The notes under the pieces were generated by a model. That model was not told the DNA's origin. It worked only from the letters and a program-made list of their open reading frames with translations, and did not search any database. From Alentia gelatinosa (Eukaryota > Annelida > Polychaeta > Phyllodocida > Polynoidae), in assembly GCA_950022655.1 (NCBI GenBank), contig OX465579.1, positions 15,165,088 through 15,229,087 on the forward strand: a stretch of 64,000 nucleotides of DNA, given 5' to 3'. Both the position numbers and the translations under genes were made by a program. Positions 417 to 53,036 of the stretch are shown one piece after another. Within the stretch, counting starts at the first letter, position 1. Each line of letters opens with the position of its first letter.

Positions 417-713
417 TTATAGAGGAAACCCGTGAAAGTTTAGGGTCCGAGCCCGTAACCCATCGAGTTTGAATCACATAGTAATTCACAAGGCGAAGCC
501 GCGTGAATTACTATGTGATTCAAATGAGATGGGATCCAGCTCTGACCCTAAACTTGAATGGGTTTCTGAATTTATCTCACCTTTAATATTGACTAATGGG
601 CTAACATTTGTGACATTATCCCCCATTGGATATTTTTCCTAAATATCTAATGGGCGTTAGATACGAGTTCCCAATGTTAAGTCTAAGGAGAAAAAATATC
701 TGGGGTGAGATAA
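417..713 (+). mobile_element. Bipartite stem-plus-box element, subfamily A, copy 1
   Basis: The left half is a long imperfect stem. GAAACCCGTGAAAGTTTAGGG pairs with CCCTAAACTTGAATGGGTTTC, and the loop contains AAGGCGAAGCCGCG. The right half is a box opening with TTTATCTCACC and closing with GGGGTGAGATAAA, with AATGTTAAGTCTA about 25 bp from its right end. Copies at 8799, 26169 and 27499 share both halves. No coding capacity. I know no standard name for this family. Confidence 0.85.
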
Positions 714-2233
714 ATACATGTATGTATGTGTATGTAGGTGCAAGTTTAAAAGTATGCATATATTTATAGTATGTCTTTGCCTACATATATACACTAAGGT
801 ATATTGATCTATAATTGGCAACATCAATATTATGGGTCGGCTTTTCTTTTAAATGTTTAGACACTGATAAATGAGGGGTCGGTCAACAAATGTTATGGGG
901 GGCAGTAGATTGGAATTTCTAGTGGTCCCGTCCCACCATTAGGTAGGTAATTATTCCACGCTGGTAATTTGGAGGTTTCAATAAACTACCACTAATTGAC
1001 GCCATGGTCCCTTTCAGGCCGCCGGGCAGTGACAAAAGATAACAAACATCGCAGACATAGAGGTTAATTTCCGGGCGACCTGGCCTAGCTAACAAACTAC
1101 CCGCTGTAGTCAGAGCAGTGACTTGTGTACGCCATTCGTCTTGCCTGTTTACTTCTCTTCCTACAGGTTTACACTGTCAGCTGCGGTAGCTGCTGATTCA
1201 TGGTAACGTTAAAAGACCTATGCGGACTTGAGTTATGGGTTTCTTCTCTTGTAGTACAAGCACAGACCAGTCCCCATTGTTACAACGATGCCATACGCAA
1301 CACGCAGGGGGTTGGTGGAACACTGGAGGAAAAGAGTGATAGCCTTGATATGATCTGATATGGAACCAAATGTAACCTAGACGCAAATGCATTTTGATGA
1401 AGGCACCCCATTTCTAGAGAGATATCCGATTGGTGTTGAGTGCGTGGTGGTGCTAGTGGTGATTCACGTATTGAATCGCAGGGTGAAAAAATGACAGCAT
1501 CTGACAGACACGCTACAGTACATGTAGTGGAGCCCAGGATTAATGTCACTGAGTAAGGCGTTATGTATTTGCCTCTAGGCAACCCTCTCTTAGCGTATCC
1601 CACGTGTGTCTGGCTTTCCCACAATTATGAAAGGCCAGATTTTAGCGCATTCTATACACAGGCTTCCCATTTCTCAACTTGGTGCACAATACCGACGCTG
1701 CGAAAATCAATTTCAGATGCAGCGTTGTGTGATAATTCCCAAGGATGGGATTTGGTTTTGAGAGCGAGTTGTACTTTGTTACTGATTCTCAAGTGGTAGT
1801 TGTTTTGATGAAATGCCCCATATTTACACACGAGTAGTCCCATTTACTGCTGCCTAATGGCTTTCATGTTTAACAACCCATAGATGTTCGTAGTGATGGC
1901 AATGGTATCTATCGCACCAACATCATTATCAATACCTTCTCCGTGGAAACACAAATGTATGTATTTTCATCCTCTTCAATCGTTCAATTAAACTGATTTA
2001 AAAATAAGTTTTATTCATCATTATTGAGTAGCATCTTCATCGCTACTTAAGCAAATTTGAATTCTGCCAACACCTGCTCTCTCTCTAACAGGATCACTCT
2101 CCACTCATAAACGTCCATCGATTCGCCTTTCTGCCAGCCTGCAGACTGTCATTTGGTTCTTGTATATTAAATGATTTTGAAGTGAATCACAGAAATTGAC
2201 GGATGGAGTGTGAAGGAAGGGGAACTGGTGGAT
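714..2233. other. No supported feature
   Basis: AT-rich to mixed sequence. The open frames of 60-114 codons overlap each other on both strands and show no domain, splice context or codon bias. A weak resemblance to the CCGAC foldback family near 830-990 (TGGGTCGGCTTTTCTTTT) is too eroded to call. Confidence 0.5.
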
Positions 2234-2433
2234 GGATTGGGGTGCTGAAGGGGGATAACATAACCCTCAGCACTGCGTGGGCTGGCCGATTAACTGGAGT
2301 CAGTTGGGAGTATTGTAGTGTGCCAATTGGAGTGAATCACGCCTGGATAACAGTGGATTGGGAGTCTCCCCAGCCATGACCCTGTATAGGGAGAGATATT
2401 GGGTTAGAGTGTGGGTAGAGAAGGGTTTTTTTT
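2234..2433. repeat. Paralogous segment, copy 1 (without large insertions)
   Basis: The segment runs from GATTGGGGTGCTGAAGG to GAGTGTGGGTAGAGAAG and is repeated at 3064-3843. There it is interrupted by a 455-bp element and a TA/A-rich block. Here the first interruption point reads TAACATAA at 2256-2263, where the other copy has TAA on each side of the element. It therefore serves as a near-empty reference for both insertions. Confidence 0.85.
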
Positions 2434-2520
2434 AGATCTTTCTTACTCTGAAAAAGCTTCGGTAGCACGCCGGTATGACTGCTCGTTCAGTCTTCCTCGG
2501 TACACAAATATCAAATATAA

Positions 2521-2802
2521 GGCCCGGCGTCCACCTACTACGATAGAATCGTAGACCTCCCGATATGGAACCGATACAAAATGTCAAAATCGGTGCCATA
2601 TCGGGAAGGTGCAAAATCTTAGGCATATGTCTAGACATGCCAATCCACCACGCATTGTATGGGGTTTTTATCGGTGTGTAATCGCAGAAACGTTGTCAAC
2701 TGCCCCGATATTAGGTGACCTTCGGACGCGATTTTGATTTTGCATCGGGAGGTGCATCGTAGGGCATATCGGTGCCATATCGTAGTAGGTGGACGCCGGG
2801 CC
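2521..2802. mobile_element. Foldback element, GGCGTCCACC family, CGATA subfamily, copy 1
   Basis: Near-perfect terminal inverted repeats begin GGCCCGGCGTCCACCTAC and end with the inverse, GTAGGTGGACGCCGGGCC. The interior repeats the word CGATA or TATCG about eight times, the word also found inside the terminal repeat (CTACGATAG). TATAA lies to the left and TTAA to the right, roughly compatible with a TAA target duplication. No ORF of transposase size, so the element is non-autonomous. Confidence 0.85.
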
Positions 2803-3087
2803 TTAACCATAACAGTGCTCTTTAACTTTATCGATTTAGTTATTCAGTCTTTAGTTCATAATTGTCCTCGGTGCTTGTGCAAGATGAATGGTGATGACGT
2901 CGTAAGGTTTTCGTTCTTCATAGCTAGTAGGGTGTCCTCTGGTAAGCCATGTACTAACATTATCTAAGTTTGATATTTACAAGTTCGAGTAAAGTCATAT
3001 TACACATATGCTCAGTTATCGTACAGATTTGATGTATAGTCTCAACTTGAGCTTACAATTGTTGATTGGGGTGCTGAAGGGGGATAA

Positions 3088-3542
3088 GAGGGGGCGTCCA
3101 CCAACCACGACAAGGTTGCGACAACGGCTTTCCGACAAGGTCCACGACAGCTCTACGATTGGAAGGCCTGTCATAGCCTTGTCGTGGTTGGTGGACCATA
3201 GTTCCCGACAAGAGGCTACGACAAGGCCCCGAGAGGCTGCGACACGAAGCTTGTCAGGAGGTTGTCGGGGGCCTTCCGACAAGGCTACGACAAAATCGAA
3301 CATGTTCGATTTTTGCCACGACAAGAGCCTTGTCGTGGCGTGTCGTGGCATGTCGGGAGGTTGTCGCAGAGGTCTACGATAGAAAATTTAGGTGGAGCGT
3401 GCTCTTCCCGACAGACTACGACATGCCCCGACAACGCTGTCGCAGAGCTCTTCTCCTCACGACAAGCCTGCGACAAGGCCCTGATTGGAATTTTCTTGTC
3501 TGCGCGTGTCGCAGCCCTGTCGTGGTTGGTGGACGCCCCCTC
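3088..3542. mobile_element. Foldback element, GGCGTCCACC family, CGACA subfamily
   Basis: A 455-bp element with perfect terminal inverted repeats of about 25 bp starting GAGGGGGCGTCCACCAACC. It is flanked by TAA at 3085-3087 and 3543-3545. A 3-bp TWA duplication is typical of PIF/Harbinger elements (family knowledge; the assignment is inference). I counted about 24 copies of CGACA or its inverse TGTCG inside. A second inward copy of the terminal repeat ends near 3195, marking a roughly 100-bp sub-element at the left end. Open frames here are by-products of the repeats. Confidence 0.9.
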
Positions 3543-3660
3543 TAACCCTCAGCACTGCGTGGGCTTGCCGATTAACTGGAGTCAGTTGGGAGTATTGTAG
3601 TGTGCCAATTGAAGTGAATCACGCCTGGATAACAGTGGATTGGGAGTCTCCCCAGCCATG

Positions 3661-3663
<3 letters not shown>

Positions 3664-3728
<65 letters not shown>

Positions 3729-3806
3729 GCAGGAAGACCTGACCGTTGTGTCAGATGTTGACAATAAATAATAAAAAAAAAATTAATAAAAAATAAAATT
3801 AAAAAA
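3664..3806. repeat. (TA)n tract plus A-rich insertion
   Basis: About 29 TA units are followed by roughly 50 bp of unique sequence and then AATAAATAATAAAAAA and further A-rich DNA. Copy 1 of the host segment reads CCCTGTATAGGGAGAG at this point, so the whole block was inserted or expanded here. The A-rich right end would suit a short retroposon, but no tRNA-like promoter is visible. Confidence 0.7.
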
Positions 3807-3843
3807 TAGGGAGAGACATCGGGTTAGAGTGTGGGTAGAGAAG

Positions 3844-5784: not shown

Positions 5785-6170
5785 TGCATGGGTAAAGCAG
5801 TTAGGGCGGGGGCCTGGCATCGATACTCCCAGGTCAGGGGTTCAGATTAGTGTGCCGAGACTGTCACTCCTGGGTCTAGCCTGGAGGCGCCCACACAGCA
5901 CCACACCCGGGCAGGAGAGCTGTGGTAATTGCCATGGAAACGGGGAGCCGGCGGTATGCATGTATTCTGTGAAATCAATCAAGGGGAGGGGAGACTGGAC
6001 AAAACCCTGCAGAGCCTGTGTGCCGGGGATGAGTCTGGACGGTCCCCGCCGGTCTGGAGGACCAGGGCCCGGTGTGGGGTGGGGGGAGGGCAGGCCCTGG
6101 GCGTGAGGGAGCGGACTTTGTGTGGGCGCTTGGAGCATGTGGTAACATGGGGAGGTTGTGACTGAGGTTA
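5785..6170. other. GC-rich patch with possible tRNA-like SINE head
   Basis: At 5785-5860 CCTGG and CCAGG could form an anticodon stem, followed by GTCAGGGGTTCAGATT, which resembles a B box. This would suit an eroded tRNA-derived SINE on the plus strand. The A box is not clear. From 5880 to 6110 the DNA is GC-rich and holds overlapping frames in several registers with no domain. I do not call a gene. Confidence 0.3.
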
Positions 6171-8159: not shown

Positions 8160-8464
8160 ATATCGTAAAACTGGATGAGTTTTAATTTTGGCCACCGTAT
8201 GCCATGACAGGAGTTGGGCATAGTGATTTCATGAGGGGAAGCCAAGTGAAGTCCAGAGCCAAAACTTCAGGAGTGGAATGCGGTTGCCACGATTAAAAGG
8301 AATCAGGTTTAGATTTTATCCTACCCCGTCTCCTCGATTTTGGAATATTATGTGATAACAATTCTGTATGCCACTAGTGGCATATAAAACTCTGTATGCC
8401 AATCAGCGTGGCATACGGAAAGTCAATGTTAAGCCTATGCGACTTCATATTATGGGTAGGATAA
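8160..8464 (+). mobile_element. Bipartite stem-plus-box element, subfamily B, copy 1
   Basis: The element begins TATCGTAAAACTGGATGAG and ends GGGTAGGATAA. The stem pairs the TTTTGGCCACCG-like arm with its inverse, and the loop carries GGGGAAGCCAAG. The box opens TTTTATCCTACCCCG and contains GTATGCCAC, TAGTGGCATA and GTGGCATACGG, with GTTAAGCCTATG near its right end. The word GTATGCCA also occurs in the stem (CCACCGTATGCCATGAC). Copies at 17147 and 36175 match. Confidence 0.85.
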
Positions 8465-8798: not shown

Positions 8799-9086
8799 TA
8801 TAGAGGAAACCCATGAAAGTTTAGGGTCAGAGCTTGTATCCCATCGAGTTTGAATCACATAGTAGCCGAAGCCGCGTGAATTGCCATGTGATTCAAATGA
8901 GATAGGATCGAGCTCTGACCCTAAACTTGAATGGGTTTCTGAATTTATCTCACCCTTAATATTGACTAATGGGCTAACATTTGTGACATTATCCCCCAAT
9001 GGATATTTTTCCTGAATATCTAATGGGTGTTAGATACGAGTTTCCAATGTAAAGTCTATGGAGAAAAAATATCTGGGGTGAGATAA
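8799..9086 (+). mobile_element. Bipartite stem-plus-box element, subfamily A, copy 2
   Basis: Nearly the same as the copy at 417-713. Left arm GAAACCCATGAAAGTTTAGGG, loop GCCGAAGCCGCG, right arm CCCTAAACTTGAATGGG, then a TTATCTCACCC to GGGGTGAGATAA box. High similarity to copy 1 suggests recent spread. Confidence 0.85.
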
Positions 9087-13302: not shown

Positions 13303-13530
13303 AATATTTTTTTTCTTTTTCAATCAATTTTCAATGGGACATTGTGTTACACAATCACCGAATTCGGCTATATGGCCGTTCTTCCACTCGGGCCCTAGAC
13401 CCCTACTCCTCATTCTAAAGCCGAATAGGCAGTGGGTACCTTTTTTGCAAGTCTTTGGTATGACCCGACCGGATGTTTGAACCCACGACCTCCCATGCTT
13501 GAGGCGAACACCTCTACCACTTGGCCTCAG
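13303..13530 (-). mobile_element. tRNA-derived SINE
   Basis: Read on the minus strand, the head is tRNA-like: GGCCAAGTGGTAGAGGTG (A-box region), TTCGCCTCAAGCATGGGAGG, then GTCGTGGGTTCAAACATCC (B box, one or two changes from GGTTCGANTCC). Next come GGTCGGGTCATACCAAAGAC and a body of about 110 bp. The tail is A-rich with TTGAAAA/TTGATTGAAAAAG repeats. Head, body and tail in this order fit an RNA polymerase III SINE; I recall similar heads from molluscs and other marine invertebrates. It abuts a bipartite element at 13533. Confidence 0.75.
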
Positions 13531-13532
13531 AG

Positions 13533-13802
13533 TTGAATGATGAATGAATCTATGAAAGGTTATGGTCATAACTCGTATCCCATCGCCTTGTGAATTAAGT
13601 AGCGATGCAAACGAGATGGGACCCGAGCTCTGATCGTAAACTTGAATAGGTATCTGAATTGATCTCACCCCTCACAATGACTAATTGGCTATTTTTCTTT
13701 TTACATAATCCTCGATTTTTCTTTTTACTTAATACTCCATGGGCATTGAGGACGAGCTCCAAATGTTAAGTCAATTGGGGAAAATACTGGGGTCAGGTGA
13801 AT
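13533..13802 (+). mobile_element. Bipartite stem-plus-box element, subfamily A, copy 3 (eroded)
   Basis: Shares ATGAAAGGTTATGGTCATAAC, ATCCCATCG, CAAACGAGATGGGACCCGAG and a box running from TGATCTCACCCC to GGGGTCAGGTGAA. The loop has CCTTGTGAATTAAG but has lost GGCGAAGCC. It is more diverged than copies 1, 2 and 5. Confidence 0.75.
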
Positions 13803-16552: not shown

Positions 16553-17506
16553 ACACGCTGCACGAAACTAACCATTTTATTCATGTATACGCCATCGCGG
16601 AAGTGTATGTATCGGCTGTATATTGACTCCTTGTCACATGTAAACGCCTATATTTCACGCCTACGTATGAGGCGTATACAAGACTGTTTCATTTTGAATA
16701 CGGACGCGTCTTGGCTGTATTTCGCACCTGGCGTATACAAAAGGAAATATAATCTGCGCGATAGATAGGCCCACCACCCGACTCCCTATGACTTCAGGAG
16801 AGTGGTGTTTGATAGCAAAATCTATCAAAAAAACGTTTTAAAAAACCAAAGAATGCTGGGTTTATTATATGTAATTAATGTAATGATACTTATTAGGGTT
16901 TTAGAACAATTTTATAATCAAAATTTATTATATAACATTGGGTTTTCCACATACCAAGGACTTAGTGACTAATGGCATATGAAATATGATACAGTGGTGT
17001 CCCCAAGTGGCAGAGATACTAATCGATAGTGGTGTAAATACAACAGAATCAGGCGTATAGATGAATCAGGCGTATATATGAATCAGGCGCCTATAGATAA
17101 GGCGTATACACAAGGGGAATAGGACGATCTTGTATAAGCAAAAGTATTATCGTAAAACTGGATGAGGTTTAATCTTGGCCACCGTATTCCACGACTGGAG
17201 TTTGGCAAAGTGACTTCATGAGGCGAAGCCGAGTGAAGTCCGGAGCCAAAACTTCAGGAGTGACATGCGGTGGCCAAGATTAAAACGAATCAGGTTTTGA
17301 TTTTATCCTACCCTATCTCCTCGATTTTGGAATATTACGTGATAACAATGCTGTATGCCACCACTAGTGGCATCTAAAACTCCGTATGCCAGTCAGTGTG
17401 GCATACGGAAACTCAATGTTAAGCCTATGGGATTTTATATTAGGGGTAGGATAAACCTATATACACCGGGTGCATATATATGTAAAATGGTGGTTCTCGT
17501 GCAGTG
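16553..17506. mobile_element. CGTATATA-rich element with CGTGCAGTG ends, copy 1, carrying a nested element
   Basis: The left end CTGCACGAAACTAACCATT then TTATTCATGTATACGCC pairs with the right end ATATGTAAAATGGTGG then TTCTCGTGCAGTG. Interior landmarks GACGCGTCTTGGCTGTA and GGGGAATAGGACGA recur in inverted orientation at 29616-30030. A subfamily B bipartite element (17147-17454) sits inside it near the right end, so this element is older than that insertion. Confidence 0.75.
17147..17454 (+). mobile_element. Bipartite stem-plus-box element, subfamily B, copy 2 (nested)
   Basis: Begins TTATCGTAAAACTGGATG and ends GGGGTAGGATAA. Loop GAGGCGAAGCCGAG; arms CTTGGCCACCG and CGGTGGCCAAG; box with GTATGCCAC words and GTTAAGCCTATGG. 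It interrupts the element at 16553-17506; the copy at 29616 supplies the uninterrupted arrangement. No obvious target duplication is seen at the junctions. Confidence 0.85.
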
Positions 17507-19802: not shown

Positions 19803-20105
19803 GTCCACATAATATCATGAAACTTCACGAAATTTCATATGATTGTTTATATGGCATGAGTTGTCTTCGCGGAATGATATCACGAAGCGGGGCTGAGTGA
19901 TATCTGTAGCAGAAGACAATGAATGCCAAGTAAGCAATCATATGAAATTTCGTGATGTTTAGATATTATCCTACCCTGTCACATGTTTTTAACTTCATAT
20001 GTCACCAGTGGCATATAAGTATTGTATGGCATAACCGTGGCATACAGTCACACCATGTTAAGTCTATGGAGGTTTATATGAAGTCTATGGACTTTATATG
20101 AAGTC
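19803..20105 (+). mobile_element. Bipartite stem-plus-box element, TATGGCAT subfamily
   Basis: The arms CACGAAATTTCATATGATTG and CAATCATATGAAATTTCGTG are near-perfect complements. The loop reads CGAAGCGGGGCTGAG, an altered GGCGAAGCC. The box opens ATTATCCTACCCTG and has TATGGCAT words that also occur in the stem, then GTTAAGTCTATGG. The closing GGGGTAGGATAA is not present; the right end instead repeats TTTATATGAAGTCTATGG. Confidence 0.8.
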
Positions 20106-20127
20106 TAACTAAAACAAACTGATATCG

Positions 20128-20300
20128 ACATGCCACTTGTCAAAAAAGGTGGATAATAAATACAATATAGACTGGTTTCAGATAAAAGCACAAAACCTCT
20201 GAGATGACTCTACGCAATATCCTCGCATACGCTCGGATATTACTACGCGTCAACTCCTCGGAGCATACGGCCGCTTGTATCTGAAACCAGTCAATATTGC
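20128..20300. mobile_element. GACTGGTTTCAGATA palindromic element, copy 1
   Basis: AATATAGACTGGTTTCAGAT and ATCTGAAACCAGTCAATATT are inverted arms. The interior TACTACGCGTCAACTCC and the left shoulder GGTGGATAATAAATAC recur at 24610-25240 and 54598-54950; the interior also recurs at 56313. Confidence 0.85.
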
Positions 20301-26168: not shown

Positions 26169-26467
26169 TTATACAGGAAAACCATGAACGTTTATGGTAA
26201 GAGCTCGTATCGCATAGACTTTTAGTAGTGTAGTAACTCACAAGGCGAAAACCCGTGAATTACGTAGCGATTCAAAATAGATAGGATCGAGCTTGGACTG
26301 TAACCTTGAATAGGTTTCTGAGTTTATCTCACCCCTCACTTTAACTAATTGTCTAACTTTTGTGATATAATCCCCCATTGGGAATCTACATTCTAAATAC
26401 TCCATTGGCATTGAGTACTAGTTCCCAATGTTAAATCTACGGGGACAATAACCCTTGGGTGAGATAA
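26169..26467 (+). mobile_element. Bipartite stem-plus-box element, subfamily A, copy 4
   Basis: Left arm ACCATGAACGTTTATGG; loop CAAGGCGAAAACCCGTG (altered GGCGAAGCC); right arm ACCTTGAATAGGTTTC; box from TTTATCTCACCCC to TTGGGTGAGATAAA with AATGTTAAATCTA. Confidence 0.8.
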
Positions 26468-27187: not shown

Positions 27188-27498
27188 TTATCCTACCTCC
27201 AATAAAAAACTCCATAGGCTTAACATTGGGTCACTGTATTCGGTCTGGAGTTCAGAAAAATGAAAAATATCGCTCTAGTGGGATACACTGGACAAATGGC
27301 GTCATTTGTTAATGTAGAAGTAATTTAGACGGGTGGGGTAGGATTAATTCTAAACCAAACTCGAGTTAGTCATGTTATTGTTCATCGCACTCCGGCAAGA
27401 TCGCATATTACTGCTCTCGGCTTCACCTCGCGCATTAATATGCGATCTTGCCGTCGTGCGATAAACAACAACATGACTAACTCTTGTTTGGTTTCTCC
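27188..27498 (-). mobile_element. Bipartite stem-plus-box element, GAGTTAGTC subfamily, reverse orientation
   Basis: This is the reverse complement of the element at 52733-53036. The box runs from TTTATCCTACC to GGGGTAGGAT with CCATAGGCTTAACATTG. The stem arms CTCGAGTTAGTCATGTTATTG and ACAACATGACTAACTCTTG surround GCTCTCGGCTTCACCTCG. It ends GGTTTCTCCAT and directly abuts the subfamily A copy at 27499. Confidence 0.85.
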
Positions 27499-27796
27499 AT
27501 AATAGAGGAATCCTATGGAAGTTTAGGGTAAGAGCCCGTATCCCATCGAGTTTGAATCGCGTAGTTATTCACAAGGTGAAGCCGCATAAATTACGTAGCG
27601 ATTCAAACAAGATGGGCTCGAGCTCTGATCATAAATCTGAATAGATTTCTGAATTTATCTCACCCTTCATATTGACTAATTGACCAACATTTGTGACATA
27701 ATCTCCCATGGAGTATCCTTTCTAGATACTCCAAGGGCATTGAGTACGGGTTCCCAACGCTAAGTCTATGGAGAAAAAGCACCAGGGGTGAGATAA
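27499..27796 (+). mobile_element. Bipartite stem-plus-box element, subfamily A, copy 5
   Basis: Left arm GAATCCTATGGAAGTTTAGGG; loop CACAAGGTGAAGCCGC; right arm with AATCTGAATAGATTTC; box TTTATCTCACCC to GGGGTGAGATAAA. It lies stem-to-stem against the element at 27188-27498. Confidence 0.85.
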
Positions 27797-28297: not shown

Positions 28298-28806
28298 TTT
28301 ATCTCACCCCTGGTATTTCTTCCCCATGGACTTAACATTGGGAACCCATTCTCCATGCCCCTACAAATATTGCAGTCCGTTCTCCGTGGTCTATATTGTG
28401 TGTGTCGTCCATTCTCTTACTGTGTAGGGGATGAGATAAATACAGAAAGCAACTTGTTTTGGTCAACGTCATCGTTTTTTTTGTTTTTTTTTAATTTTAA
28501 AGAAACTTGTATTCATTCTGCCCTGTGGCTTGTTTTTTTAAGGCTGTCTTTGGAGGGGCAGTTTTAGTCTCCGAACTGAACCTGTTCCATAGAGTTTCAT
28601 AACTTTCTGTCAGTAGAGTTTAACATCTTTCCATAGAGTTTCACATCTTAACATAGAGTTTCACATCTTTACATAGAGTTTCACATCTTTCTTTAACTCA
28701 TTTGAATGCTAAACGATATTCACTTGGCTGTAGCCTCGTTCATATATTACTCCACATCAAACTCCTGGAAAATGATGACTTTGACTAAAACCTGTTGGTT
28801 TCTTCT
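28298..28806 (-). mobile_element. Bipartite element, TTCTCCA subfamily, with inserted minisatellite
   Basis: The box comes first: TTTATCTCACCCCTGG to GGGGATGAGATAAA with GGACTTAACATTGGG. Then comes a stem with arms CAACTTGTTTTGGTCAA and TTGACTAAAACCTGTTGG and a loop reading GGCTGTAGCCTCG. A 23-24-bp tandem repeat at 28588-28695 splits the stem relative to the copies at 30889 and 37938. Confidence 0.75.
28588..28695. repeat. 23-24-bp minisatellite (CATAGAGTTTCACATCTT)
   Basis: About five units of CATAGAGTTTCACATCTT with one- or two-base changes, lying inside a bipartite element. Confidence 0.9.
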
Positions 28807-28809: not shown

Positions 28810-29100
28810 TTTATCTTAGCCTGGTAAAGATGTCCATAGGCTTAACATCAGGAACTCATACTAAACAGACATGCGGGTACAGTAAATCATACTAAATGGG
28901 TGACAAAGTCACAAACAGATAACTATATCCAGGCTAAGATAAAATCAGCAACATATTGGTGTTTGGTCTGTGTCCCCGATAACCATCTCGTTTGAAGCAC
29001 CTCAGAATATTCAATCGGCTATCGCCTCGTTCATATTACTGCACACTCCAAACTCGATGGCAAACGAGGAATCAGACCAGACACTCATCAGTTTCTTTCA
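28810..29100 (-). mobile_element. Bipartite element with variant box TTATCTTAGCCTGG
   Basis: The box runs TTATCTTAGCCTGG to CCAGGCTAAGATAA, so both terminal repeats changed together from ACCCC to AGCCTGG. CCATAGGCTTAACATCAGG is retained. The stem arms GTGTTTGGTCTG and CAGACCAGACAC enclose CGGCTATCGCCTCG. Abuts the preceding element. Confidence 0.8.
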
Positions 29101-29615
29101 TACTATTCCACCCTCAATCCTACCCGTGCTGACCTAAAGTAACCTGAAACAACTACAGCCGCAATCCGCAAATAGTTTCCAGAACCCAACAGGTTCAAAT
29201 TGCTTTTTGTAGCCCAATACAAAAATGAAATTGATAAAAGTTCACTTTAACACCCTTAAGGGCAACCCGGGCATTCCTAGCGTAACCTCACCCATCCTGT
29301 CTGTTGATTTGCCTGTATCTGGTGTATCTACACCCATACGCCCTTATGCCTTCCTAAACAAACCCAAGCCACACCAACTATCCTGAACACAGCCTAATTT
29401 ATACCACATGTTCTTATCCAACCTCTCCCGACTTGCCACAAACTGAACTTGATTATGGCCCATTTCCCTTGAGTCTGCATATCTAAGTCTTTGAATTAAG
29501 GGATTGATTATTTTTTTAAAGCGATAGAGACTTATTGATTCTAGAGAGTCATCCCATCCATTTTCAGTTTAGCTATAGGAATAACATCAGAAAAAAATAC
29601 CCTATGATCACTCTG
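29101..29615. other. No supported feature
   Basis: AT-rich sequence without recognisable genes or repeats. Confidence 0.5.
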
Positions 29616-30059: not shown

Positions 30060-30500
30060 AAAAGGGGTGAGATTAACCCAGAACCACACTCGAATCGTAA
30101 AATACTCAATACTCCACCCGTATGGATGTACCTTAATAATCACTCAGCTTTGCCTCGATGACGACTGCGGCACATCCAAACTCATGGAGTATTGAATATT
30201 TATCTGATTTCTGATGCAGTTCTATATAATTATCTCACCCCGGTATTTTTGTCCATAGGCTTAACATTAGGAACTCGTACTCCACGGCCGTGAGGTTCGT
30301 GTATCCAATACTCAATGGCTAATTTGGTGATTCATTTTATCAATAAATAATGTTATACGGGGTGAGATAAAATCAGAAACCCACTCTATGACTTGGTCCG
30401 CACTCCACCTCGTTTGACTACAGAGTAGTCGTGAATTACTCTGCAGTCAAACTCGGTGGAATACGGACCAAGCTATTGTCATCTCATGGGTTTCCTTCTA
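30060..30500. mobile_element. Bipartite element with stems on both sides of the box
   Basis: A stem at about 30060-30215 uses the word AATACTCAATACTCCA and its inverse TGGAGTATTGAATATT. The box TTATCTCACCCC to GGGGTGAGATAAA follows, then a second stem with arms GACTTGGTCCGCACTCCACC and GGTGGAATACGGACCAAG. The box itself contains TACTCCACGG and AATACTCAATGG, words of the left stem. Confidence 0.8.
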
Positions 30501-30888
30501 AGTATCAACCTGCCTCAAAATACCACGATGCGTCCCAACTGATGAACATTCTACTCAACCCACGTCCACCTCATTCCACCCCCAACCCTGACCCGACTGA
30601 CCTCCACCCGCCCCTGCCTCCTCCTACCTCATCCAGATCCTCCCTCATCCGCACCAGTGTAACGCCACTAACCCGGAGCTAACCCCATCGGCACGCAGCC
30701 TGTTTTAATATCCATACACCATGTGCTAATCCCGATACCTGACAGGAGTGAAACATACCCTCGTCCATCTTGGTGCCATGTTGAGCTGTTCAATAGTGAT
30801 TATCTTTATTAGTGTATGAGTGGTCTTAAGTCATGAGACTATTATTAAAAAAAAGTTTTTATCTCACCCCTCGTATAAGACCAGTTTT
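30501..30888. other. No gene; C-rich stretch and a stray TTATCTCACCCC
   Basis: 30560-30680 is pyrimidine-rich. At about 30858 an extra TTTTATCTCACCCCTCG lies just left of the next element, probably a remnant end. Confidence 0.45.
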
Positions 30889-31145
30889 TTTTATCTCACC
30901 CCTGGAATAAATGTCCATAGGCTTAACATTGGGAACTGTTCTCCATGCCCCTACAAGTATTTCAGTCCGTTCTCCATGGTCTGTATCCGGTGTGGCGTCC
31001 ATTCTTTTAGTATGTACAGGGGTGAGATACATACAGAAAGCAACTCGTTTTGGTCAAGGAAGTCATTCTCCAATTCGTTTGAATGCTACGTGATATTCAT
31101 TCCGCATCAAACGAGGACTTTGACCAAAACTTGTTGGTTTCTTTA
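30889..31145 (-). mobile_element. Bipartite element, TTCTCCA subfamily, copy 2
   Basis: Box TTTATCTCACCCCTGG to GGGGTGAGATA with CCATAGGCTTAACATTGGG and two GTTCTCCATG words. Stem arms CAACTCGTTTTGGTCAA and TTTGACCAAAACTTGTTGG. The stem also contains ATTCTCCAATTCG, the same word as the box. Confidence 0.85.
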
Positions 31146-35628: not shown

Positions 35629-35908
35629 ATTATCAAGAGATGTCACGAGTTTGAGTATGAGTCTATTTATGTCACGGATTTTGTTGGTTTTGTTTGTTCG
35701 TCTTCGACTCGTGAGATTGCGGAACCAACACAATGCGCGACATAAATAAACTCAAACTCAAACGAGTGGCGTCTAGATTTTAACCTTTCCCGTTTCCACG
35801 ATTTCTGAATATTAGAAAGTAGTGACATAAACAACACTTTATGTCACACCCGTGACATAAACGAATCCTATGTTAAGCCTATGGCGTCTTTTATTAATGG
35901 TAGGATAA
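35629..35908 (+). mobile_element. Bipartite stem-plus-box element, TTTATGTCAC subfamily
   Basis: Stem arms GAGTATGAGTCTATTTATGTC and GACATAAATAAACTCAAACTC; loop CGTCTTCGACTCGTGAG. The box carries TTTATGTCACACCC and two GTGACATAAAC words, repeating the stem word. It ends with GTTAAGCCTATGGCG and TGGTAGGATAAA. The left box terminus is degraded (TTTTAACCTTTCCCG). Confidence 0.8.
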
Positions 35909-36174: not shown

Positions 36175-36472
36175 TATCGTAAAACTGGATGATTTTTAAT
36201 CTTGGCCACCCGACTGGGGTTTGGCATAGTGATTTCATGAGGTGAAACCGAGTGAAGTCTGGAGCCAAAACTCCAGGAGTGGAATGCGGTGGTCAAGATT
36301 AAAACGAATCAGGTTTTTGATTTTCTCCTACCCCGTCTCCTTGATTTTTGAATATTACGTTACAACAATTCTGTATGCCACTAGTGGCATATAAAACTCC
36401 GTATGCCAGTCAAGGTGGCATACGGAAACTCAATGTAAAGCCTATGGGATTTTCTATTAGGGGTAGGATAAA
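36175..36472 (+). mobile_element. Bipartite stem-plus-box element, subfamily B, copy 3
   Basis: Begins TATCGTAAAACTGGATGA and ends AGGGGTAGGATAAA. Loop GAGGTGAAACCGAG (altered GGCGAAGCC); arms TCTTGGCCACC and GGTGGTCAAGA; box with GTATGCCAC, TAGTGGCATA and GTGGCATACGG. Confidence 0.85.
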
Positions 36473-37937: not shown

Positions 37938-38237
37938 ATTTATCTTACCCTTGGTATTTTTGTCCCCCAGGCTTAACAGTGAGAGCCACTTGGAGTTCTC
38001 CATGCCCCTATGAGTATTGCAGATCGTTCCCCAGGGTCTATATCCTGTGGCTCATCCATTCTTTTGGTGTGTACAGGGGTGGGATAAATACAGAAAGCAA
38101 CTAGTTTTGGTAAAAGTTGTTGTTCTCCAACTCGTTTCAATGCTATGTGATATTCACTTGAATGTCGCCTGGTTCATATCACTCCGCATCATACTTGTAC
38201 GGAACTCTAACTTCAACCAAAACTTATTGGTTTCTTC
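37938..38237 (-). mobile_element. Bipartite element, TTCTCCA subfamily, copy 3
   Basis: Box from TTTATCTTACCC to GGGGTGGGATAAA with CCAGGCTTAACAGTGAG and GTTCTCCATGCC. Stem arms CAACTAGTTTTGGT and ACCAAAACTTATTGG. The stem repeats the box word as TTGTTCTCCAACTC. Loop GAATGTCGCCTGGTTC. Confidence 0.8.
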
Positions 38238-39084
38238 TCTATTAGTCTCACACTTACTGGCTAGCTGTACGGAATCCGTTTGTAGTAGTGTGACGAATTA
38301 TAAGTATACTGCTACCCCCTGTACCACTTGTGAAGATGAAAATGGGCGTTCTTAATCATTTCCAGGTATATCATAATAAGGAGACATATTGTGGGTTACT
38401 GAATATCATCTGTTACTTGTTCTATTGATAGAAAATGCCCCGCTCGTTTTTTTAACTTGGGTTGATATTTTCAACACAAAACAGCACGGAAGAGATTCCA
38501 TTGAGCCACCCTAACTATGTCTTTCTATTTTAGTTTATCCCTCCGCTGAATATTACTTTGCTATCGTCGCATTTGCCGTATACTCAATTTTATGCTTTAA
38601 CCCCCCTCCGGCTGTATTCCCCTGGATTGTTGGTTACTGTCACCATCATCCATCAATGAATCCCTAATGATACATTTCCCCCCCGGATATATCATTACTT
38701 TCTATGATTGGGCCCTCCTTGCGACCACCCCATAATCTCCTACTTGGACCTTTCAATGTAGGGACCCCTACACCATTACATTCTTATCTATAGTCTTGTC
38801 TAATATGCTCTTCCCACTGTGGATTTAGGAATTTATCCCGTTTTGCTATGCCTTCCCATATATAGATTAAAAACCTCCCTCTACCCTGTCCTCTCGTATC
38901 TTCCTACCCAGCATCTAACTGACTATCACCACCCCTGTTCTGCACCCATGTCCTACCTTCTTCAAGCAATACCTTGTTTTCCTTCAATGTCGTGATCTAC
39001 CTTGTACCTTACTTTTACTTATATTTCCCTTTCCTATTGCCTCTGGGGCCATCCATACGGGCGCAAAAGTTCCCAAAACATCTT
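38238..39084. other. No supported feature
   Basis: Pyrimidine-rich plus strand with no recognisable gene. Confidence 0.45.
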
Positions 39085-45438: not shown

Positions 45439-45467
45439 TAAAGGTATGAACGTAGCGCCTCCCCTAT

Positions 45468-45750: not shown

Positions 45751-45779
45751 TAAAGGTATGAACGTAGCGCCTCCCCTAT

Positions 45780-47130: not shown

Positions 47131-47880
47131 CATCAAAGACCTTCAAGGTATGCTATTGCTCTATGGTATCGTGATGGTTTTGACTGTGAGGGATCTACAC
47201 ACAGTAGGTAGGTGTATAGTGGTGTCCTCTTACAGCATCTACTAGCACCCGTTCCAAAGGATGGCGAAAGGGGGTGGTTATAGAGCCCTATCCCTGAGTA
47301 CCTTCATCGTTCTCTAATGTTCACCATTCACACTTTTATAGACGCCAGGGCAACTTCTAAGGCTAAGTGTCGTAGCAAGCACCCCTCCTCCCTCCCACAC
47401 ACAGACACACACACACACTCATCCTCCTCCACTACCTACCAAACTGCCGGGAACCAGCGCACCCGCTACATAGCCTATGTATGCTATTATTTCGCTTGTA
47501 CCTGAAGGGCTCTCTATATAGTGCGGTATGGCCATTACGGGCCAGGCAGGTAGCTGAGTGCTAATAGTTTGATAACCACCTCGCCTTCCCCATACAAACC
47601 CCACCACCCACCCCAACCACCCTGTTCTTCAATCAGAGTGTAACTAGGACATTCCCTGCCACGACTAGCCAAGCATCAAGCAGTTAACGCAGGCCCTACT
47701 CACCCGCTAATGGTTTGGTCACAACTAACACCGACGCCCCCCACCCACACCCTCAGGCCTAGCGTACTGGCATCGATCCGGCGGTCATATCATCGCATGC
47801 ATCATAATCCCGACCCACTCCGCTCATATGGCCCTCCAGCACACACTCTATCAGTGTAGTGTGCGCGGTGGGATGGGTTA
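47131..47880. other. No supported feature
   Basis: C-rich plus strand at 47380-47650 and short CA repeats; no gene. Confidence 0.45.
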
Positions 47881-49035
47881 TGCCCAGTCCGCACTGTGCG
47901 ACTGGAGTTACCAACGTGCGCCCAGTCTGAGACGGGATTTACTGAGGTACGCCAAGTCTGAGTATGGGGTTACCTAGGTACGCCCAGTCTGAGACTGGAG
48001 TTGCCTAGGTACGCCCAGTCTGAGTATGGGGTTACCGAGGTATGCCCAGTCTGAGACTGGAGTTGCCTAGGTATGCCCAGTCTGTGTATGGGGTTACCTA
48101 GGTATGCCCAATCTGAGACTGGAGTTACCTAGGTACGCCCAGTCTGAGACTGGAGGTACCTAGGTACGCCCAGTCTGAGACTGGAGGTACCTAGGTACGC
48201 CCAGTCTGAGACGGGATTTACTTAGGTGCGCCAAGTCTGAGACTGGAGTTACCTAGGTACGCCCAGTCTGAGACTGGAGGTACCTAGGTACGCCCAGTCT
48301 GAGACTGGAGGTACCTCAGGTACGCCCAGTCCCAGACTGGAGGCATCTAGCACGGCAAAACGCACAGTGTGAACTGCACGCTTCCTTCTAGTCTGAGACT
48401 TGGTGTATCAGGTATGCCTAATCTCAGACAGGAGGTACCTCAGGTACGCCCAGTCTCAGACTGAAGGTACCTAGCACGGCAAAACGCACAGTGTGAACTG
48501 CGCACTTCCTGCTAATCTGAGACTGGATGTATCAGGAACAGCCAGTCTCAGACTGGAGGAACCTCAGGTATCCCCAGTCTCAGACTGGAGGTACCTCAGG
48601 TACGCCCAGTCTCAAACTTGAGATACCTAGCTCGGCAAAACGCACAGTGTGAACTGCGCACTCCCTGCTAGTCTGAGACTGGGTGTATCAGGTACAGCGA
48701 CTCTTAGACAGAAGGTACGTGTGAGCACGTAGCACGAGAAAACGCATAGTGTGAACTGCACGCTTCCCGCAGTTCACAAACTGGATTTACCTCAAGCAAG
48801 CCCAGTCGCAAGCCGTTCGAATAGCAAACATGTCTGATATTCGGTACCGCTAGACGCCGTCTGGGCGTACGGAGGGACAGCCAGGTGCAAGGGTTCCAGT
48901 CGAAAGCAGTGTGGTTCACACATATATTACCTTACGAATTGGCGCACCGGCTTTGGAACGTCCAGTTTCAAGCACAGTATCCCGAGTCGGCGATTAGAAG
49001 TACCCGCTCGCAAGCTCCCCAGTCGCACAGTGTGA
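47881..49035. repeat. 31-bp minisatellite with higher-order structure (CCCAGTCTGAGACTGG)
   Basis: About 13 units of 31 bp (GGTACGCCCAGTCTGAGAC ...) run from about 47900 to 48350. Longer units follow that add CACGGCAAAACGCACAGTG and TGAACTGC at about 48352, 48476, 48632 and 48737. Each 31-bp unit holds two near-palindromes, CCAGTCTGAGACTGG and GGTACCTAGGTACC, so the array could form cruciforms. Confidence 0.9.
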
Positions 49036-49309
49036 ACGGGGCTCTAGGGTGATGGGAGTGTATAGGGTAAAGGGGGGCAGGGTGAGTGTGTGCTAGCGTG
49101 ACGTGTTATCCGTCTCCATCCGTCTCTCCCTGTCACCTGCCCGCCACCCCGAGCACAAAGCGTACAGCTCCGAGATACTGCCGATCTATAGCACACACAC
49201 ACATACACACAGACACACACCCTACTGCAAACACATCTCCCTATTAACTATAGAGAAGGGAACATCTTTGCCAGCCGTACTACACAAAGGGGTAAATTGA
49301 CGGTACTTA
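49036..49309. other. No gene; short CA repeats
   Basis: ACACACACACATACACACAG tract near 49192-49220. Confidence 0.6.
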
Positions 49310-49675
49310 GTAGAAACCAAACGAGAGTTAGCCTTGTCAATGTTTATGCCACGATGGGCAGGTTGTGTATTACTACACGAGGCGTTAGCCAAGTTTAGTG
49401 AGTAGCAGACCTGACCAGAGTGGTATGAACATTGACAAGGCTACCTCGAGTTCAGTTTTGTATTTATCCTACCCCATCTCACCGATATACAGAGAATATT
49501 TGTAATTATCCATGTTAGTAGTTATCAATGCTGCCGGATCTACTTTCGTTATCTCGTCCCTGATTGGTCCGTTTTTTTATTCACCTCAGTGCATAAATAA
49601 CACTTTATCCAACGCACCGTCAAATACATTGAGTCAATGTTAAACCTATGGCGTTTTTTATTAGGGGTAGGATAA
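49310..49675 (+). mobile_element. Bipartite stem-plus-box element, GAGTTAGCC subfamily
   Basis: Stem arms GAGTTAGCCTTGTCAATGTT and AACATTGACAAGGCTACCTC; loop ACGAGGCGTTAGCCAAG. Box TTTATCCTACCCC to GGGGTAGGATAA with GTTAAACCTATGG. The outer stem sequence AGAAACCAAACGAGAGTTAG is shared with the element at 52733. Confidence 0.85.
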
Positions 49676-49976
49676 TCTATGGTTATGCTCGTGTGAAATT
49701 GTCCCCCGTCTGGCAATGCTCAGTGTGCTGCCGGAGTTTGAACAACTGTCTCCCCACCACACGCCATCATGCCCCCTGCTGTTGGGTTTTGAGGAGTGAT
49801 CGGGAAAATTCGACAATAGGTAAATTGTGAAGGTAGCATGACCCCGCGGAGATACTACCTTGTCATGCCAAAGTGCTCGCGTGACATCTGCCCCTTATTT
49901 GGTCATCTTCGCGGGAGGGCTTATCAGAGAATGCCAACTGAAGCCCCCCTTTTATCATAGACCTTGTATTCAGCTT
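49676..49976. other. No supported feature
   Basis: Mixed sequence between two elements. Confidence 0.45.
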
Positions 49977-50264
49977 CGACTCACCCCTGGTATTCTGTCC
50001 CCATAGACTTGTAATTGAGAGCTCGTACTCAACGCCGATGGAGTATTATAGAAAAATACTTAATGGGTGCTGATGTCACAAATGTTGGCCAATTAGTCAA
50101 TGTCAGGGGTGAGGTAAATTCAGAAAACTATTCAAGTTTACGCTTGATCCCATCTTGTTTGAATCGACATGTAGTTTGTGCGGCTTCGCCTTGTGAATTA
50201 CTATGCTTTTCAAACTGAATGAGACACAAGCTCAGACCATAAACCTTCAGAGGTTTCCTCTATA
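49977..50264 (-). mobile_element. Bipartite stem-plus-box element, subfamily A, reverse orientation
   Basis: Reverse of the 417-713 type. Box ACTCACCCCTGG to AGGGGTGAGGTAAAT with CCATAGACTTGTAATTGAG; stem with loop GTGCGGCTTCGCCTTGTG; ends CAGAGGTTTCCTCTATAGG. Confidence 0.85.
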
Positions 50265-50470
50265 GGATCTCATCCCTGCTGTTTTTCCCCATAGAATTGA
50301 CATTGGGAGCTCATACTCAACACCCAAAGAGCATTGTAGGGGAAAATCAATCATGAGAAATATCAATATCAGGGGATGATGTCACAAATTCATTTTGGAT
50401 TGCTACCTAATGTCACTCGGCTGTCCCTCGTGAGATTACTCCGCAACCCAAACTCAGGGCATATTGTTAG
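50265..50470 (-). mobile_element. Bipartite element, box and partial stem, adjoining the previous copy
   Basis: ATCTCATCCCTGCTG, CCATAGAATTGACATTGGG and CAGGGGATGATG outline a degraded box. A partial stem contains CTCGGCTGTCCCTCGTGAG. It shares its left border with the end of the preceding element. Confidence 0.6.
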
Positions 50471-51270
50471 TAGGTATAGATCTCAAAGCAGTTCCTTATT
50501 ATTCCTCTACACTCTCCGCTCCACTATAGATGCCGCCCCTATAGAATCTATGTCTCATTATCTTTGTTGTTGCTCGTATAGATTTCTCAGATGTAACCGC
50601 ACACGCCGGTATCTATAAATAGGTGTCTGGCAACAACAATGGCTCTAAGGATCCCCCTACCTCTTCCTCTCCGCACATCCTACCCATGCCTCCAGTGGTT
50701 CCATGGATCCCTTTCTGTTCCCTTACAGATAGCTGCTACATCTCAGGTACATAATGGGGGATCGTGGGTACCGAGCCGGAATGGCGGAGGGGTGGAGGAG
50801 AGCGGGGAGTGGGGTACGGGAACAGGCCTGGACGACGCCGCATATAATGGCCACGTGCGGCAGACCCGCCCGATTTATCTTGGTCGCGCGGCGGGGCGGG
50901 ACGGGCGGAGATGGGACGGCGGCGGGGGTCGGAGGGGCCATTGTCGGCGCTAACCTGGGGCGGGCGTCGCAGGGGCTTTGTTCCGGCCCGTAAGGACGCT
51001 AATCGGTCCCTCGGAACGACCCGGTCACGCGCCCGCCGACGCCCGGCCGCGCGGCGCCCCAGCCCGCCCACCCACCGGGGGACCTGGCGGGGAGCCCGGG
51101 CCCTCTTGTGTTTTAATACCCAGGTATCTATGCAGCACCGGAGGCCACGGCGGGCGCCAGGGCGGGACCTGGGGCCTGGGACGGGGGGACTGCCCGCCCT
51201 GTGTCGGCCGACGGGAAGGGGCGGGCGGGGGGAGGAGAGGGTGGGTCCGCGAGACTGGGAGCTAAAATCG
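50471..51270. other. GC- and CpG-rich island at 50750-51270
   Basis: The island is about 500 bp of very high G+C. Frames of 60-183 codons are open on both strands because stops are rare in such DNA; they are Pro/Arg/Gly-rich and show no domain. It lies about 2.2 kb upstream of the exon at 53433, so it could be a promoter or a GC-rich first exon of that gene. Nothing in the sequence proves this. Confidence 0.35.
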
Positions 51271-52732
51271 AACCGGTCATTCATCATCGGCGCTATATTA
51301 TCGTTGATCCCACGCTAAGCCCCGTGATCATGAATATTCATAAGACCCTGTAGCACCAGTTCTATGGGCAGGAGATGCGCCCACGCAAACCTAGTGGCAT
51401 ATACTATATACATACACCCAGCGGTGGGTATTCCATGAAGGTGCCTTAAAGGTAATCCTTTGTCTCTCTGTCTCTGCATTTTTTGTTGTTGTTTTCTCTG
51501 CCTAGTTAGGGCAGAACGTATTGTGGCAGGGAGTGATTTGAGTAGCAGTCGGCAACACTCGATAATGGCGCAATTCCTGTGCTTGGGATTAGCCACAGCC
51601 CGTCGCTAATTACCTTTTTCATATACTACTACGGAAACGACCCGCAGCTATGCGCTGTTTTCGTGCACTACTTAAAATATTCTCCGTCAATGCTGAACTA
51701 TTCGAGCAGTGAATATAGTGAAAAGTAAAATCTGAGATTGATGAACCAACACTGATATGAAAAACAGGGATATTGAAGGATTGCAGTGAAATCCAATACA
51801 CTTCCCTAAGCACCCTGCTAACGGGCGTCTACCTTCCATTGTCCAGCCACACAATACTGTAGGCAGACAGCGCTACAGAGTCTATTCTCTTGCCACTATA
51901 TAGCTGCGAATGGATACTGTTGCATACAGAAAAAAATACTAGTTTCGAATTCTATACAGAGAGATAGATTCGCAAACATGGCTCATATAGCATCAATGTA
52001 GTAGCTATACCAACATATCCTAGGGTATTGGCCTATACATACAGGGAGGCTGTATATATATGAAGGTATTTCTTATAATTTCCAAGCTTTGTGTTTTAAT
52101 TCAGAACTTTCCAGCACGTCTAACAGTCGAGAAATTGTCTTATTTTGTCCTTATTAGAACAGAGATAAAGTTTTACCCTTAATGGCACTAATTATATTTA
52201 CGGCGGGATCCGGTGAACAAAGAGACCCCTTTTTTAACGTTCCGCTGGGTGATGACAAGGTAATACAGGCAGCGTAAACGATTTTGAGCGAACAACGCTT
52301 AATGCCAGACGCTTAAAAGGGGGAATAGGGATGTTTGATCTGCCCTATGAAATATGAGAACAGCTTTGCGTGAGATCATATCGTATCACAAAGTAGGCAG
52401 TTTATGCATAGCGCTCTTCTTTCTGGTGGATTCATGATATTGTATATTTGCAGTTGTATTAGACCCTTTATGGAATAGTTTAACCTTTTGACAATGCGAC
52501 ATTTGCTCATCTACCTTGTACTGTTATCTCCTTCTATCAATAACATTATTTGATACTGTGACTCAACATATTATAAGCAACACATTTCAGAGTTATTGCA
52601 CCATAATATAATCCAATGGATAAGCTCTTTTTACTGACACTTTCGTCTCATTACAAATCAGTATATTGGAAGTCAATATGATTATGATTATTGAATCCAA
52701 GATTGCTTAACATCAAATATAGTATGGAGAAA
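51271..52732. other. No supported feature
   Basis: AT-rich sequence without recognisable genes or repeats. Confidence 0.5.
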
Positions 52733-53036
52733 CCAAACAAGAGTTAGTCGTGTTGTTGTTTATCGCACGACAGCAAGATCGCATATTACTGCACGAGGCG
52801 AAGCCGAGAACAGTAATATTCGATATTGCCGGAGTGCGACGAACAATAACATGACTAACTCGAGTTTGGTTTAGAATTTATCCTACCCCGCCCGTCTAAA
52901 CTACTTCTACATTAACAAATGACATCATTTGTCAAGTGTATCCCACTAGAGCGATATTTTTCATTTTTCTGAACTCCAGACCGAATACAGTGACCCAGTG
53001 TTAGGCCTATGGAGGTTTTTTTTAGGGGTAGGATAA
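52733..53036 (+). mobile_element. Bipartite stem-plus-box element, GAGTTAGTC subfamily, forward
   Basis: Stem arms GAGTTAGTCGTGTTGTTG and CAATAACATGACTAACTC; loop GCACGAGGCGAAGCCGAG. Box TTTATCCTACCCCG to AGGGGTAGGATAA with GTTAGGCCTATGG. It is the forward counterpart of 27188-27498; the two match along their whole length. Confidence 0.9.

Follow-up and report, generated by a model that had tools for sequence, protein, structure and literature searches.

Tyrosine recombinases (YRs) usually act on sites made of inverted repeats that flank a spacer of 6-8 bp (PMC3212892). For the animal Cryptons, the 2011 survey of these YR transposons reports neither direct nor inverted terminal repeats, and the word "hairpin" does not occur in it (PMC3212892). 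In bacterial integrons, the folded attC site spans 57-142 nt, and its extrahelical bases, together with a central spacer, mark both the strand and the site (PMC2727003). Here we describe an abundant group of elements in the annelid Alentia gelatinosa that combine a long hairpin with a box bounded by inverted ends. Our search of openly licensed PMC papers found no description of this plan, and the papers matched by the letters of its box ends are, judging from their titles, unrelated.

Anatomy and abundance of the elements

The analyzed window is a stretch of 64,000 nucleotides and holds about 20 elements of one plan, in which a long hairpin is joined to a box with 12-bp inverted ends. Allowing one mismatch, the box end TTATCYYACCCC matches 33 times in the window, against a mean of 1.67 in shuffled sequences (33 or more matches in none of 100 shuffles), and TTAAGNCTATGG matches 19 times against 1.61. 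The loop CGAGGCGAAGCCGAG, with up to two mismatches, has 5 matches against 0.01. Genome-wide, exact copies of TTATCYYACCCC number 58,502 on one strand and 58,115 on the other, and the same count with the pattern reversed as a control gave 247 and 219. The plan can be seen in 30 boxes, of which 17 lie in the window and 13 elsewhere in the genome. Two of the window boxes re-use one end, which leaves 15 elements, and a clear stem is absent in a few of the 30 (e.g., at 28299 in the window and at L023:971). An element starts around 7 nt outside the base of the stem and ends with GATAA.

Both outer boundaries were set for 17 window elements (16 tabulated ones and that at 35631), and partial elements lie near 28299, 30064, 31574, and 50106. 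The earlier note had proposed a single superfamily of about 21 members with conserved box ends; its count is correct because the bounded and partial elements together account for it, and the single superfamily and the kept loop and box ends are supported as well. The window elements are as follows.

418..713, + strand, A2 element: hairpin 418-571, box 572-713
8161..8464, + strand, H1 element: hairpin 8161-8315, box 8316-8464
8799..9086, + strand, A2 element: hairpin 8799-8944, box 8945-9086
13544..13800, + strand, decayed A2-like element: ends uncertain, end motif with 2 mismatches
17148..17454, + strand, H1 element: hairpin 17148-17302, box 17303-17454
19813..20185, + strand, I7 element: hairpin 19813-19965, box from 19966, right end 20185 doubtful
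26170..26467, + strand, A2 element: hairpin 26170-26323, box 26324-26467
27188..27501, - strand, G0 element: box 27188-27346, hairpin 27347-27501, whose stem is better paired than any other in the window
27501..27796, + strand, A2 element: hairpin 27501-27654, box 27655-27796, stem-to-stem with the G0 element 27188..27501
28299..28439, - strand, B4-type box: stem broken off
28811..29102, - strand, type D singleton with box end TTATCTTAGCCTGG: box 28811-28942, hairpin 28943-29102
30064..30229, - strand, F5 hairpin: begins directly where the element 30230-30501 ends with GATAA
30230..30501, - strand, element of an A2 sub-branch: box 30230-30370, hairpin 30371-30501
30891..31145, - strand, B4-type element with shortened hairpin: box 30891-31030, hairpin 31031-31145
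35631..35908, + strand, J3-type element: hairpin 35631-35779, box 35780-35908
36175..36471, + strand, H1 element: hairpin 36175-36322, box 36323-36471
37940..38241, - strand, B4 element: box 37940-38087, hairpin 38088-38241
49307..49675, + strand, G0 element with longer box: hairpin 49307-49463, box 49464-49675
52723..53036, + strand, G0 element with tip CGAGGCGAAGCCGAG: hairpin 52723-52877, box 52878-53036

Neighbouring units can abut or nest, and one 62-bp tandem array is built of a single bare end.

The stems keep their shape while their letters change

The stem measures 153-156 nt in all eight subfamilies, and tandem G.A mismatches recur at three distances from the base, namely about 9, 39, and 62-67 bp. 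Between these fixed sites, the helices differ among subfamilies by paired substitutions and have near-unrelated letters, with left-arm identities of 0.35 in segment 20-38 and 0.28 in segment 51-62. At least three Watson-Crick types occur at 36 of the 69 pair positions that can be compared among the subfamily stems. Some stems are partly alike (z of 3.7 for A2-B4, 3.5 for F5-E6, and 3.2 for E6-I7), and others, such as G0, are not.

The mismatches are asymmetric between strands. In 28 stems we counted 165 A.G against 33 C.T and 107 G.T against 37 A.C; for a second sample we took 60 other loci, at 20 of which the script recognised no stem, and the 44 hairpins obtained gave 214 against 40 and 154 against 89, respectively. 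GA/GA makes up 43 of the 117 double mismatches of this second sample, where 0.45 were expected. The eight subfamily consensus stems show the same trend (A.G 52, C.T 3, G.T 23, A.C 7), whereas mismatches in 43 control hairpins are strand-symmetric. Since the asymmetry is found in two samples and is absent from the controls, one strand appears to be under selection in its folded, single-stranded form.

The loop is mostly GNA or GNNA, closed by C-G and placed between CGAG sites. The tip forms a GNA/GNNA mini-hairpin in 48 of 68 cases, and in 39 of the 45 with intact closing pairs. In DNA, loops of this kind closed by two G-C pairs are known to give mini-hairpins of extraordinary stability (PMC4686876). 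What had been taken for a constant loop is thus a conserved kind of tip rather than one fixed sequence. The stems, likewise described as unrelated between subfamilies with matching arms, do pair and have very different helices, but their length and the positions of their mismatches are common to all. With its near-equal length, fixed G.A doublets, covariation, and strand asymmetry, the stem pattern is of the kind that compensatory change leaves under structural constraint. The repeats, short and very abundant, look like passenger jumping genes with a terminal DNA hairpin that preserves its shape although its sequence varies.

Mid-stem word, insertion target, and empty site

A word found in the middle of the stem reappears in the box of the same element. 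On unfiltered boxes, the test of this association was not significant (4,153, 5,099, and 6,071 of 40,320 permutations); it was repeated after limiting the boxes to at most 260 bp (55 of 58), some unfiltered boxes being judged to run into their neighbours. The insertion consensus, derived from 55 elements, is RTAH^A(N5)ATAC; the passengers are flanked by RTAH at one end, and at the opposite end they include ATAA. At the clearest site, locus L006, the empty site has no target duplication, and stem and box are absent together.

A tyrosine-recombinase unit of the same plan

In the genome, 150 Crypton-type tyrosine recombinases (DUF3504) scored among 719 candidates. One of them lies in a unit of the same plan (L012:1759-4715), with a reading frame at 2288-3112 that matches DUF3504 (7.7e-16) and Phage_integrase (1.2e-11). 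A bare inverted end is followed by the recombinase, an inner inverted end, and the hairpin, which carries tandem G.A in mid-stem and at its GGA tip. The unit occurs in many copies: 15 of 93 match rows start at query positions 556-560, and 18 stop at 3514-3532. A further hairpin at L012:1437-1571 was considered as part of the unit and rejected, as the copies set the left end at 1759; it belongs to a neighbour. C12 carries the site without this unit, with TAATA once, where the filled site has it at both junctions; this could be a 5-bp duplication.

The search for an autonomous partner suggested by the earlier note has yielded a YR unit of the same plan, but with the ends TATTACTATATAGG instead of TTATCYYACCCC. 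Judged by these ends, this unit, the one YR unit read, does not directly partner the TTATCYYACCCC subfamilies. In a 1.76-kb copy, none of five open pieces reached the Pfam cut-off and one piece compared with the PDB gave no match, and a 16-base motif scan of viral contigs gave 12 stretches, none with the box end.

Proposed mechanism and alternative explanations

We read the anatomy, the strand-specific constraint, the common word, the preferred target, and the existence of a many-copy YR unit with this plan as the marks of probable non-autonomous relatives of Crypton-class YR DNA transposons, which would use the folded hairpin as the substrate of the recombinase. A unit has TTATCYYACCCC as its bare inverted end, then a body, a second inverted end on the inner side, and the terminal hairpin. 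The strand on which the hairpin comes first would fold as single-stranded DNA into a rod, maintained by compensatory change and marked by the G.A doublets and the GNA/GNNA tip, and the word common to mid-stem and box would probably be the site that gives the cognate recombinase its specificity. The enzyme would then act on the folded end and join the unit to the target at RTAH^A(N5)ATAC. We infer that this YR class moves the passengers and, by analogy with attC, the hairpin may be recombined as a single strand. More tentatively, and as a possibility that we hold somewhat short of probable, Crypton-class YRs could read a folded ssDNA hairpin by its shape (tandem G.A kinks at a fixed spacing and a GNA tip) and by a word specific to the lineage, and thereby carry around 10^5 passengers with stems that drift freely provided that they pair, as a eukaryotic counterpart of the integron.

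The elements might instead be IS200/IS605-like HUH (Y1) transposons in a eukaryote, with the hairpin as left end, RTAH as flank target, and ATAA as right cleavage site, the Y1 enzyme peeling off and pasting the hairpin strand. The strand-specific hairpin fits, and so does the way in which the element inserts 3' of a conserved tetranucleotide and has a similar one at its right end, comparable to TTAC/TCAA of IS608 (PMC5934647), and TnpA-REP requires stem bulges (PMC8266576). Yet Y1_Tnp (PF01797) has no match in the animal's own genome, whereas the control matched in 5 of 14 genomes, and the unit of this plan that could be read encodes a tyrosine recombinase, so we consider this origin unlikely.

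Selection of the hairpin as RNA, for example as a structured transcript, would explain the excess of G.T (G.U), and RNA energies do tell the strands apart for 26 of the 28 stems in the first sample and for 36 of the 44 in the second. However, 7 of the 8 GNNA loops with intact closing pairs are not GNRA and the GNA triloops are of the DNA mini-hairpin type, so that the loop types favour DNA as the folded molecule. With no match in an Rfam scan of the window at gathering level, and a target and empty-site pattern that fits DNA joining, an RNA function seems quite improbable.

Non-autonomous Helentrons (Helitron2; HINEs) have asymmetric inverted repeats, a terminal palindrome, and no target duplication (PMC4067079, PMC5148889), to which the box ends and the stem could correspond, and the 62-bp array of one bare end would suit them. 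Against this very doubtful assignment, HINE 3' palindromes are given as 5-10 bp (PMC4067079), compared with about 70 bp here; the target is RTAH^A, not TT, in the 55 elements; and the genome has a single Helitron_like_N match (3 candidates at first look) with no family end within the surrounding 3.3 kb. Viral_Rep had no match in the genome, nor in any control, which makes that scan uninformative.

The replacement of stems as modules, by template switching or by a new palindrome formed at the box, had been the explanation first offered, and several subfamily stems are indeed near-unrelated between the fixed sites. It fails to account for the near-equal length of the eight stems, the repeated doublet positions, the covariation, the strand asymmetry, and the partial likeness of subfamilies; G.A doublets are not expected in a fresh palindrome. 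We thus regard it as very unlikely in general, although stem exchange may have occurred in some lineages because, e.g., G0 is unlike the other subfamilies. Finally, that stem and box are two separate adjoining inverted-repeat elements, as abutting and nested copies might suggest, is scarcely credible given their constant order and common word, and is ruled out by the L006 empty site, which lacks both.

Comparison with known systems

If the Crypton-class reading is true, these elements are a eukaryotic parallel to the movement of gene cassettes by bacterial integrons. They would also give animal Cryptons, for which the survey saw no terminal repeats (PMC3212892), an end structure and a target accessible to bench experiments, and would provide a large natural alignment of an ssDNA structure under selection. 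A search based on shape could reveal hidden passengers elsewhere, where by sequence only unrelated inverted repeats are visible.

Among the systems compared, Helentrons and HINEs have similar asymmetric inverted repeats and a terminal palindrome (PMC4067079) but differ in target, hairpin size, and enzyme. IS200/IS605 elements (IS608) and REP/TnpA-REP resemble ours in the kept flank target, the irregular hairpin, and the strand specificity (PMC5934647, PMC8266576), and REPs also in their huge number of small passengers (PMC8266576); unlike in IS200/IS605, the hairpin here is much longer and the genome has no Y1 transposase match. The likeness to integron attC/IntI lies in the class of recombinase, in the precedence of structure over sequence, and in the strand-specific folded hairpin (PMC2727003), whereas our elements have a hairpin of about 150 nt with tandem G.A doublets, occur in a eukaryote, and would undergo a putative single-strand reaction. 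Neither an attI nor a cassette array was seen here.

Compared with animal Cryptons as surveyed, the elements have inverted ends, a large structured terminal hairpin, and a target consensus, and while YR sites generally consist of inverted repeats and a spacer (PMC3212892), the passenger target RTAH...ATAC resembles a direct repeat. Cryptons have 4-6 bp direct repeats at both termini and no target duplication, which the TAATA at both junctions of the L012 unit may reflect, a duplication being also possible. In line with animal Cryptons (CryptonA/CryptonI), a DUF3504/Phage_integrase gene, abundant in this genome, occurs in a unit of the same plan, there are more non-autonomous than autonomous copies, and a long target duplication is absent (PMC3212892).

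Copy number and anatomy of the elements

The exact box-end motif occurs 58,502 and 58,115 times on the two strands of the genome (1.234 Gb, 101 contigs) versus 247 and 219 times for the reversed pattern, and we estimate the family size to be on the order of 10^5 copies. About 21 elements, whole or partial, lie in the window. Read on the stem-first strand, an element starts with a linker of 5-7 nt beginning T(A/T), followed by a hairpin spanning about RAAAC to GTTTC/GTTTA and, 3' of it, by TTATCYYACCCC, the box, TTAAGNCTATGG about 25 bp before the end, and the terminal GGGGTRRGATAA. The box is usually 127-179 bp long; it measures 463 bp at locus L005 and 1,762 bp in a copy at L001/L104 in which the outer arm of the hairpin is gone. 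In some copies, a deletion runs from the box into the hairpin. The longest box includes one further feature:

A ~450-bp repeat of high copy number in the long element copy, L001:1700-2150 (C1:292364-292814)

Among the 40 of 1,427 candidates scored, other genomic copies of this repeat are often paired on the same strand about 6-20 kb apart. It thus resembles an LTR, and the L001 copy is probably a solo LTR.

The minus strand of window 13500-13530 resembles by eye the 5' part of a tRNA and is perhaps a SINE; ARAGORN found no tRNA in the window. Tandem arrays of 31-bp and longer units (GACTGGAG...CCCAGTCTGA) with inverted symmetry occupy window 47900-48700. The open frame L015:6960-7949, at another locus, encodes a NADAR domain (6.8e-24) and lies in surroundings rich in reverse-transcriptase frames.

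Strand-asymmetric mismatches in the stems

The stem of these elements is a structure. Our first set comprised 31 hairpins adjoining box ends in the window and the first loci, of which 28 were kept after removal of two that were a neighbour's opposite strand and one that was unrelated. The second came from a script search of 60 further regions along contig C1: 40 of them yielded 44 hairpins, and 20 yielded none; four of the 44 (clusters 9-12), probably non-family or on the wrong strand, are still in the counts. Control hairpins were non-family ones from 200 kb of the same genome.

Mismatches in stems, with GA/GA doublets among double mismatches
Set; A.G; C.T; G.T; A.C; GA/GA
28 stems (A.G to A.C columns with all mismatches scored equally); 165; 33; 107; 37; 27 of 80
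Second sample, 44 hairpins; 214; 40; 154; 89; 43 of 117
Control, 43 hairpins; 113; 93; 121; 131; 5 of 94
8 consensus stems; 52; 3; 23; 7; by site, see text

The 43 doublets of the second sample compare with 0.45 expected from single mismatches. The first set has 13 more of the form AA/GA or GA/AA, and the control has six TC/TC. The pairs closing the doublet covary in the second sample: CGAG/CGAG (24), TGAG/CGAA (6), CGAC/GGAG (4), TGAA/TGAA (3), CGAA/TGAG (3), CGAT/AGAG (2) and GGAA/TGAC (1). Box folding showed no strand difference (-45.1 vs -45.0 as RNA, -19.2 vs -19.7 as DNA, 23 boxes).

Clustering of 72 stems gave eight groups (15, 12, 12, 7, 5, 5, 4 and 4) and eight singletons. The eight subfamily consensus stems are 153-156 nt each, that of subfamily A2 being built from 8 of its 12 members. 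The exact GA/GA doublet is present in seven of them at the first site (about 9 bp from the stem base), in five at the second (about 39 bp) and in five at 62-67 bp; where it is absent, one base often looks to have been lost through CpG decay (CAAG for CGAG). With the first doublet of these stems as anchor, Watson-Crick pairs fill 446 of 541 cells, and at least three pair types occur at 36 of 69 positions. At locus L045 (cluster 9, box end at 336), a hairpin that lacks the family doublets, its arms almost perfectly paired over about 80 bp, precedes a TTATCYYACCCC-like end.

The tip was analyzed in 68 stems, excluding clusters 9-12, with the best tip match forced within four mismatches. The loop is GNA or GNNA in 48 of them, and in 39 of the 45 whose two closing pairs match; three of the remaining six are AAA, a CpG-decay product of GAA. 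With matching closing pairs, seven of eight GNNA loops are non-GNRA, and subfamily J3 keeps the loop though its loop-adjacent pair is T-A. DNA mini-hairpins with a GNA or GNNA loop and two G-C pairs are described as extraordinarily stable, with a sheared G-A pair (PMC4686876).

A stem word recurring in the box

The second doublet closes stem segment 26-43, whose mean match to the box of the same element is 7.49 (shuffled: 5.51), compared with 5.95 (5.57) for positions 10-26 and 5.58 (5.48) for 43-60. Over 55 elements, 47 of 40,320 permutations by subfamily reached the observed value for 26-43, versus 2,463 and 25,057 for these flanking segments. An earlier test of the word gave 4/20,000, and one with unfiltered boxes was not significant. 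Specificity is partial, because related subfamilies have words in common. Box copies of the word are often palindromic (e.g. TATGCCACTAGTGGCATA). The word is a putative recombinase site.

Insertion sites

At locus L006, an element of subfamily F5 lies inside a tandem repeat (junctions CAGATAG|TTATATAGAAC...GAGATAA|CATCACATAC); the repeat unit without it reads CAGGTAGCATCACATAC, so the target is not duplicated. The more diverged comparison of L005 with c2 again lacks duplication, while a third case, at 17303, is ambiguous. Across 55 elements, the bases at positions -4, -3, -2, +1 and +7 to +10 deviate from the background (p<0.001), with the consensus RTAH^A(N5)ATAC. The complete RTAH is found in 28 (3.3% expected from composition), and right-end ATAA in all 55, a count aided by the end pattern used for selection. 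Another unit starts exactly at the element's end in two (window 30230 and L054). Separately, an I7-like element's bare end (TTATCCTACCCC...GGTTA) forms the 62-bp unit of a tandem array at L091 (C1:1963600-1965000), which may be a satellite derived from the transposon end.

A candidate autonomous partner

Searches of the same genome gave one Helitron_like_N match among three candidates, no Y1_Tnp match, and no Viral_Rep match in a search where no control matched either. DUF3504, the Crypton-type recombinase domain, was scored in 150 of 719 candidates, mostly without stops inside the match. We read one such unit in full (L012), whose translation has R, HxxR, GHK and Y residues that we take to be those of a tyrosine recombinase (YR). 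In a genome comparison (93 matches, 40 of 9,778 candidates scored), 15 start at query 556-560 and 18 stop at 3514-3532, which puts the unit between L012:1759 and about 4715. On contig C12, query 564 joins 3511, so this site is free of the unit. Each of the unit's two junctions contains TAATA, and the unoccupied site has it once. The bare end is TATTACTATATAGG; the opposite side carries an inner GGTATATAGTAATAA and a hairpin that, stem-first, has G.A doublets both halfway along the stem and at CGAG-TTC-GGA-GAA-CGAG. This hairpin part also self-matches inverted at 16 other places. Adjoining the unit but outside it, L012:1437-1571 is a second hairpin, which has a CGAG/CGAG doublet and precedes TTATTACTATACACC; it is probably one of that subfamily's passengers.

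Comparison with known systems

The simplest account is that the hairpin-plus-box elements are Crypton-class passengers, because they have their plan in common with the YR unit, the end letters of the one unit read differing from theirs. Since the structural constraint bears on one strand only, it suggests that the recombinase acts on a folded strand, in the manner of IntI on attC. In integrons, the choice of attC strand by IntI depends on extrahelical bases (PMC2727003). While attC marks its strand in this way, the elements described here would do so by tandem G.A doublets.
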